Shown in pieces: positions 53,458 through 54,877 of a stretch of 64,000 bases of DNA (within the stretch, counting starts at the first letter, position 1; the number at the start of each line of letters is the position of its first letter). The stretch spans positions 143,503-207,502 of the forward strand of contig JBBDWV010000052.1 of NCBI GenBank assembly GCA_040902655.1, read 5' to 3'. Origin of the DNA: Mycobacteriales bacterium. GTDB lineage: Bacteria; Actinomycetota; Actinomycetes; Mycobacteriales; SCTD01. The position numbers and the translations under genes were made by a program. The notes beneath the pieces are model-generated. The model did no database searches and was not told the DNA's origin. It saw only the letters and a program-made list of their open reading frames with translations.

Positions 53458-53593
53458 GGGACGAGGCACTGCCGAGACCGCGAGCCGTTGGAGGCGGTGC
53501 ATGCCACACCGTCGGGAGCCGGTCTTCTACTCGGTCCCCTGCTGGCGCAGAGCCGGTACTACCGTGCGTCCCAACCAAGATCTTCATGCCTGG

Positions 53594-53665
53594 TGATCTT
53601 TTGGTTGCTGGATCGGCAGCGGACACGCCGGCGCGTTTGCTGCGAATCCAGCATCCAGAAGATCA
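53594..53665. repeat. 72-bp palindromic repeat, family C copy 2
   Basis: 33-base arms (53594-53626, 53633-53665) flank a 6-base loop GCCGGC. They share the core GCTGGATCGGCAGC with copy 1 at 27289. It lies in the 373-base gap between rhomboid and the GNAT gene; the rest of the gap shows no gene. Confidence 0.8.
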
Positions 53666-53830
53666 ACTGCCGACGAGCCGCCGCACGAGGGGTGCTCTTC
53701 GCGACGGGGCAGAAGCGCGGTGACGCGACACCGGGAACATCACGCCACAGGAGGTGGCCGGCACTGCTTTACCCCTGGATCGCGGGAAACCCTTGGCGCG
53801 TCGGGCGCCAGGTGCTGCACAGTCAGCATC

Positions 53831-54622
53831 ATGCGCGTGCACCCGCCCGAGCTCATCGACGCGGGCAGGCTCATCCTCCGCCGGCTCGTCGCGGACGACG
53901 TCGAGCGGATGGCGGCGGCCGTGGCCCGGAACCTGGAGCACCTCCAGCCGTGGATGCCGTGGGCGACGAAGGAGGCGGGAACGGTCGGTGTCCAGCGGGA
54001 GCGCCAGTTCGCCGTGGACGCCGCGTGGGAGAAGGGGCAGGAGTACAACTATCTCGCCCTCACCGGTGACGGTGAGGTGGTCCTGGGCAGGTTCGGCCTG
54101 CACCGCCGCATCGGACCGGGAGCGCTGGAGCTCGGCTACTGGCTGTGTGCTGACGCGGAAGGCCGTGGCTACGCCACCGCTGCTGCGGGGGCTCTGACGA
54201 GGGCGGCGCTCGAGGTCCCCGACGTCCACCGGATGGAGATCCACTGCGACGAGGCGAACCTCCGGAGCCGCGAGGTGCCGGCGAGACTGGGCTACCGGCC
54301 GGTCGGGTCGGGGGTCGATGGGCAGGCGCACGACGACTCCTCATCGGATGGCTCCGGCGGTGCTACCCGAGCCACGACGGGGCATGCTCACGGCGCATCG
54401 GTCGACAACCAGGAGGTTCCCGTGGGAGAGGTCGCGTACGTGTCCGAGGTCCGTGTCGAGCGCAGGGAGGGTTCGCTGCGCGCGGCATACCTCCCCGGCG
54501 ACGAGGAGCCGACCCTCTACGGCATGCACGGCGCCATCGCCGAGCACTACGGCGCGCAGCCCGGGCAGTTCCCGAGCCACGCCAGCACGATCGACCACCT
54601 TGTTGGCGCGGCACTTGGTTGA
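53831..54622 (+). CDS. RimJ/RimL-type GNAT acetyltransferase, frame runs into the osmC gene
   Basis: Residues 1-~158 are a ribosomal-protein-type N-acetyltransferase: LILRRLVADDVERMAAAVAR, LELGYWLCADAEGRGYATAA and VHRMEIHCDEANLRSREVP. After RLGYRPVG the family's C-terminal end is not recognisable. The frame continues as low-complexity (DDSSSDGSGG) without a stop into the osmC coding sequence, in the same frame, until the TGA at 54620-54622. Either the gene has lost its 3' end and stop, or a GNAT-OsmC fusion is made. The ATG at 53831 has no clear ribosome site. The osmC gene has its own strong one. Confidence 0.6.
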   Translation: MRVHPPELIDAGRLILRRLVADDVERMAAAVARNLEHLQPWMPWATKEAGTVGVQRERQFAVDAAWEKGQEYNYLALTGDGEVVLGRFGLHRRIGPGALELGYWLCADAEGRGYATAAAGALTRAALEVPDVHRMEIHCDEANLRSREVPARLGYRPVGSGVDGQAHDDSSSDGSGGATRATTGHAHGASVDNQEVPVGEVAYVSEVRVERREGSLRAAYLPGDEEPTLYGMHGAIAEHYGAQPGQFPSHASTIDHLVGAALG

Positions 54623-54877
54623 CTCACCGGCACGTTCGCCGGAGCCCTCGGGGCTCGGCGGATGGACCCCACCGGTCTGGTGGGGCACGCGCGCGGTGAG
54701 GTGGAGCTCGAGGGGAAGGTGCTGGTGGTCAAGCGGATCCGGGTGACCTACACCGGGCTCACGGTCGCCGACGAGGATCGGGAGAAGCTCGACCGGGTGC
54801 TCGCCACGCACGCGCAGGGCTGCCCGGTGGCCCGCAGCCTGGAGGGGTCGATCGAGATCACCACCGAGGTCGGCTGA
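54422..54877 (+). CDS. OsmC-family peroxiredoxin-like protein, probable selenoprotein (Sec at TGA 54620-54622)
   Basis: OsmC/Ohr proteins reduce organic peroxides with a pair of cysteines. The GTG at 54422 follows AGGAGG. The first part reads VAYVSEVRVERREGSLRAAY and ASTIDHLVGAALG, then TGA, then in the same frame LTGTFAGALGARRMDP, LVVKRIRVTYTGLTV and the second redox site HAQGCPVARSLEG to a normal end (151 residues). In relatives the TGA position is the peroxidatic Cys (GCLTGTF). OsmC-like selenoproteins are known from other bacteria. A hairpin with its loop 25 bases past the TGA fits a bacterial SECIS. A chance nonsense mutation is the alternative. Confidence 0.8.
54638..54659 (+). promoter_or_regulatory. 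SECIS-like hairpin downstream of the in-frame TGA
   Basis: GCCG(g)AGCCC (54638-54647) pairs with GGGCTCGGC (54651-54659) around loop TCG, with one bulged G. The loop lies 25 bases after the TGA, within the 16-37 base range of bacterial SECIS elements. Confidence 0.55.

Follow-up and report, generated by a model that had tools for sequence, protein, structure and literature searches.

An OsmC-family gene with UGA, or UAG in orthologues, at its selenocysteine position and a probable displaced SECIS element

Results

A probable seleno-OsmC gene in a Mycobacteriales genome

The 64,000-nucleotide stretch of contig JBBDWV010000052.1 from a Mycobacteriales bacterium (assembly GCA_040902655.1), hereafter the window, contains an osmC-like gene with a single in-frame TGA at the position of the peroxidatic cysteine. 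A sequence-only reading of the window had proposed that this gene encodes a probable selenoprotein, and the assignment of the TGA to selenocysteine (Sec) is strongly supported by a tRNA-Sec(UCA), selA and selB in the same genome, by a TGA at the Sec codon of its formate dehydrogenase (FDH) gene, and by orthologues that carry stops at the very same codon. The whole explanation, to which we assign a probability of roughly 0.93, is that the gene encodes a seleno-OsmC thiol peroxidase whose UGA is read by tRNA-Sec(UCA) and SelB, with the distal of two downstream hairpins as the selenocysteine insertion sequence (SECIS) and the proximal one as a spacer. The family is known and the selenoprotein gene is probably real; its orthologues display the UGA/UAG switch, and the new part is a probable displaced SECIS.

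The following features of the gene are referred to below.
54422-54877, + strand: osmC-like gene for a selenoprotein of 151 residues with Sec67; it starts with GTG and ends with TGA
54620-54622, + strand: Sec codon UGA, placed where the peroxidatic Cys belongs (the 17 Geodermatophilaceae orthologues have TAG here and Ornithinicoccus has TGA)
54821-54823, + strand: codon of the invariant resolving Cys134
54409-54417, + strand: probable ribosome-binding site, judged from its sequence, which contains AGGAGG and lies just upstream of the GTG start

When the TGA is read as a residue, a single protein of 151 residues runs from the GTG at 54422 to the terminal TGA at 54875-54877. Translation confirms that both halves lie in one frame and are parted only by the TGA at 54620-54622 (codon 67), the sole internal stop. 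The GC content by codon position is similar before (0.77/0.48/0.86) and after (0.74/0.49/0.93) this codon, and the Pfam OsmC domain PF02566 spans it (1.4e-10, 41.9 bits against a cut-off of 27.5). The protein scores 27.6 on the NCBIfam OsmC subfamily profile, below the cut-off of 85.8, and by this profile it therefore lies outside the classical OsmC subfamily. An AlphaFold model of the protein (pLDDT 82.7) has the OsmC fold, and its best matches in the PDB are all OsmC/Ohr proteins (E 3e-6, TM about 0.55), with a large rmsd because those structures are intertwined dimers.

In alignments, the TGA falls on the peroxidatic Cys of Thermus OsmC (1UKK) and, by eye, on the Cys of two Cys-type paralogues encoded in the same genome ('YAACFQSA' and 'HSSCFAMQ'), which bears out its proposed placement at the Cys position of relatives. 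The second redox Cys, Cys134, is kept as well and is invariant. As a seleno-OsmC, the product would belong to the thiol peroxidases of the Ohr/OsmC superfamily; tRNA-Sec(UCA) brought by SelB would read the UGA to place Sec at residue 67. Sec67 would act as the peroxidatic and Cys134 as the resolving residue in the reduction of organic hydroperoxides.

OsmC-like selenoproteins with a UxxT motif were published in 2005 from marine metagenomes, in the Sargasso Sea selenoproteome (PMC1088965), and the entry also appears in PMC13188914. Like them, the protein described here is of the OsmC family, has Sec as its first redox residue and contains UxxT (here U-L-T-G, the exact register in the PMC13188914 table not having been compared). 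The Sargasso proteins are marine metagenome sequences that use UGA, with a SECIS reported to fit the usual model, whereas the osmC gene studied here has UGA in one actinobacterial lineage, UAG in its orthologues and a SelB-like loop further downstream.

Selenocysteine machinery in the window genome and its family

The window genome (G000, the window being on contig C52) encodes a tRNA-Sec with the anticodon UCA (76.3 bits) and adjacent selA and selB genes, both above the NCBIfam cut-offs. Both selB and tRNA-Sec, whose absence the sequence-only reading had named as the sign of a wrong call, are therefore present. The alpha subunit of FDH, found with TIGR01553, has a TGA at the Sec site as its only internal stop. 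A search with TIGR01591 gave no FDH with an internal stop, its match in the window genome being a Cys-type nitrate-reductase-like gene on contig C58. Among the 24 genomes of the window genome's family, 18 encode a tRNA-Sec (E 1e-9), with the anticodon UCA every time, and selD lies close to tRNA-Sec in several sister genomes. Two family genomes, G016 and G025, have tRNA-Sec(UCA) yet no TIGR01553-type FDH match at 1e-60; other selenoproteins are therefore expected there.

Orthologues carry UGA or UAG in agreement with their own tRNA-Sec

Relatives of the osmC gene were sought by a short-peptide scan of 84,980 species, which yielded 14 relatives with common short peptides. Thirteen are Geodermatophilaceae, each of which has TAG at the codon, and the other is Ornithinicoccus, which has TGA. 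Among 115 Geodermatophilaceae genomes searched, 17 carry osmC, and all 17 have TAG. The 19 genes, which excluding that of the window encode proteins 63-83% identical to the window protein, thus all have a stop at the position of codon 67 (2 TGA, 17 TAG) and no other internal stop. Other stops or frameshifts in close relatives, which had been named as a further sign against a selenoprotein, were not found. The patchy occurrence of seleno-OsmC in the Geodermatophilaceae (17/115 genomes) fits repeated loss or transfer.

The tRNA-Sec anticodon is CUA in all 13 Geodermatophilaceae genomes checked and UCA in Ornithinicoccus. The FDH Sec codon is TAG in 16/16 FDH copies of the 13 Geodermatophilaceae genomes, and TGA in the window genome, in its congener G036 and in Ornithinicoccus. 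Read as osmC codon, FDH codon and tRNA-Sec anticodon, the combination is TAG/TAG/CUA in the 13 Geodermatophilaceae and TGA/TGA/UCA in the window genome and Ornithinicoccus, so that by sequence the osmC codon follows the anticodon and the FDH codon in every genome in which all three were read.

Reading of UAG as Sec by tRNA-Sec(CUA) in Geodermatophilaceae was published in 2016-17 (Mukai 2016 as cited in PMC5330540). The UAG-Sec proteins named in the text available to us from that source are FDH, a UGSC-motif protein and AhpC, and OsmC is not among them. The osmC orthologues in these genera have the same TAG codon and tRNA-Sec(CUA), and the FDH TAG codon is reproduced; the window genome differs in its use of UGA. 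OsmC thus appears to widen the UAG-Sec protein set beyond FDH, UGSC proteins and AhpC. For Sec codon reassignment, these orthologues represent a natural experiment: one genome has UGA and others have UAG in the same selenoprotein gene, and each codon fits the tRNA-Sec of its own genome.

The agreement of codon and anticodon across genomes excludes, for practical purposes, a chance nonsense mutation, and it makes readings of the stop as anything other than Sec very unlikely. A pseudogene could be suspected because sister genomes lack the segment, which was inserted recently. The orthologues already contradict this explanation, as the stop recurs at codon 67 and nowhere else in all 19 genes, in two kinds that each fit the tRNA-Sec of their own genome, and both the coding signal and synonymous conservation persist past the TGA. 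We therefore consider it highly improbable, in line with the original argument that a random mutation would hardly hit this one codon and leave the rest clean. Equally improbable is decoding as another residue, with Trp or a near-cognate amino acid at UGA and pyrrolysine at UAG. ARAGORN does call the CUA tRNAs tRNA-Pyl, but their scores on the Rfam tRNA-Sec model, 64-68 bits, are above its cut-off; moreover, the identical codon occupies the FDH Sec site, relatives have an active-site Cys at this position, and UAG-Sec in this family is already published (PMC5330540).

Two hairpins downstream of the Sec codon

54633-54664, + strand: hairpin 1, loop CUC, the hairpin of the sequence-only reading; proposed spacer between the codon and the SelB site
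54667-54685, + strand: hairpin 2, CCCCACC-GGUCU-GGUGGGG; probable SelB-binding SECIS stem-loop

Folding predictions give the RNA from the TGA to position +68 two hairpins side by side (-38.4 kcal/mol, z -2.2). In the bacterial SECIS (bSECIS) model, 16-37 nt separate the Sec codon from the apical loop in most elements, while a subset does not fit (PMC13188914); the loop rule is a stem of 4-16 bp capped by a loop of 3-9 nt that has a G within its first two positions. Hairpin 1 (32 nt) has its loop about 25 nt past the TGA, within this distance. Its loop, CUC, varies in relatives and is without the expected G at positions 1-2. Hairpin 2 has a 7-bp stem and the loop GGUCU, in agreement with the loop rule, its stem beginning 44 nt and its loop 51 nt after the TGA.

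The loop of hairpin 2 is that of FDH. FDH genes of the UAG genomes and of Ornithinicoccus have a 6- or 7-bp hairpin with a GGUCU loop 11 or 12 nt past the Sec codon, and the corresponding loop is AGUCU in the window genome and G036. The 834 kb of fetched DNA contain 54 RGUCU-loop hairpins of at least 7 bp, of which 53 are osmC or FDH sites; these are counts of sites and not of independent events, many loci being orthologues or repeat copies. Hairpin 2 is the only such hairpin in the window. Since both the FDH-type loop and the loop G belong to hairpin 2 and not to hairpin 1, the earlier SECIS choice needs correcting: a hairpin does exist at the distance described, while the sequences suggest hairpin 2 as the best SECIS candidate, displaced beyond the 16-37 nt rule.

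Hairpin 2 starts 33 nt further from the codon than its FDH counterpart, and hairpin 1 takes up 32 of these, so that folding of hairpin 1 leaves 12 single-stranded nt between codon and hairpin 2 (11 in FDH). As hairpin 1 fills nearly all of the extra distance, we propose hairpin 2 as the SelB site and hairpin 1 as a spacer. The GGUCU stem-loop at 54667-54685 would direct recoding through SelB recognition as in the FDH mRNA, and the hairpin at 54633-54664 would fold the extra spacer away, bringing the SelB hairpin to about the normal distance. We give even odds to such a relayed two-hairpin SECIS, in which SelB would bind a GGUCU hairpin 44 nt downstream, a 32-nt hairpin would restore a spacing of about 12 nt, and the arrangement would serve the reading of UGA in one lineage and of UAG in another. 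Like the bacterial SECIS of the E. coli fdhF type, hairpin 2 is a small stem-loop within the coding region with a G-rich loop. It differs in the distance of stem and loop from the codon and in the hairpin that lies between; the upper stem-loop of the E. coli SECIS begins 11 nt after the UGA (PMC8659212).

The region is conserved at the nucleotide level. Codons 83-87, which cover most of hairpin 2, show zero synonymous changes among the 19 genes, and synonymous conservation of codons 68-90 as a block exceeds that of random codon sets of the osmC gene (p 0.0016). Ornithinicoccus and one Geodermatophilaceae genome have U-A in place of the outer C-G pair of hairpin 2, changed synonymously on both sides each time, and these compensatory changes arose in two separate lineages. 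Compared with synonymous recodings, the stability of both hairpins is higher in most genes tested (p 0.009-0.07 for hairpin 1, 0.003-0.04 for hairpin 2).

Several observations weigh against the proposed explanation. The loop of hairpin 2, at 51 nt, lies beyond the bSECIS distance of 16-37 nt. With a covariance model built from the FDH hairpins, hairpin 2 comes only 14th in the 64-kb window (E 3.4), such an FDH-only model being too short to single it out in 64 kb, and an RGUCU hairpin of at least 6 bp appears in 3.8% of synonymous sampling draws. The peptide DPTGLVGH is invariant, and part of the conservation may thus be at the protein level. The covariance ranking and this invariant peptide are the chief weakness of the proposal. 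As to the machinery, selD, which the sequence-only reading had listed with selA, selB and tRNA-Sec, was not located in the approximately 184 kb of the window genome that were read, no genome-wide selD search having been made.

In a variant of the explanation, the gene is a selenoprotein gene, but hairpin 1 at 54633-54664 is the SECIS and hairpin 2 is accessory or conserved for protein reasons. Hairpin 1 lies at the usual distance, is stable and is mostly preserved, but it is hairpin 2 that has the GGUCU loop of FDH, and we regard the variant as possible but less likely than not.

An Rfam search of the osmC locus gave no match. The covariance model gave a strong extra match in genome L032, which was rejected as no Sec codon lies nearby.

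If the distal GGUCU hairpin is a working SECIS, the 16-37 nt limit of SECIS finders is too strict. It would represent a SECIS class outside the published distance rule and missed by distance-limited search programs, and genes annotated as truncated may include more selenoproteins whose SECIS is displaced.

Origin and surroundings of the osmC locus

53827-54421, + strand: GNAT-like acetyltransferase region, read as inserted with osmC into the rhomboid-kgd gap, which lacks it in the sister genomes checked

The rhomboid and kgd genes that flank the locus stand next to each other in sister genomes or have other DNA between them, with no GNAT or osmC, and osmC was not found in the other 23 genomes of the window genome's family. 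From these comparisons the GNAT and osmC segment is most plausibly an insertion that this lineage gained, probably through horizontal transfer. The locus is unlikely to be a contaminant, as the genes on either side are 79-87% identical in DNA to those of same-genus genomes. No relative was found among the plasmids or viral contigs searched, and so there was no sign of a plasmid or phage carrier.

In the DNA tree, the window gene falls outside the UAG clade (support 83/63), which implies one codon change, while in the midpoint-rooted protein tree it falls inside, which implies two. The tests (p 0.065 against a UAG clade on protein) do not decide between the two. These conflicting trees do not establish a return from UAG to UGA following a transfer out of the Geodermatophilaceae, and the donor codon may have been either UAG or UGA.

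The GNAT-like reading frame (53720-54622) runs without a stop into the osmC frame, and the GNAT gene may be intact, fused or decayed at its end. Just upstream of the insertion lies a repeat of about 150 bp (53544-53706), of which the genome has some 14 more copies, in both orientations and with 87-95% identity for most of the length. The repeat is partly palindromic and folds into a long hairpin, and from these traits it looks like a miniature mobile element.
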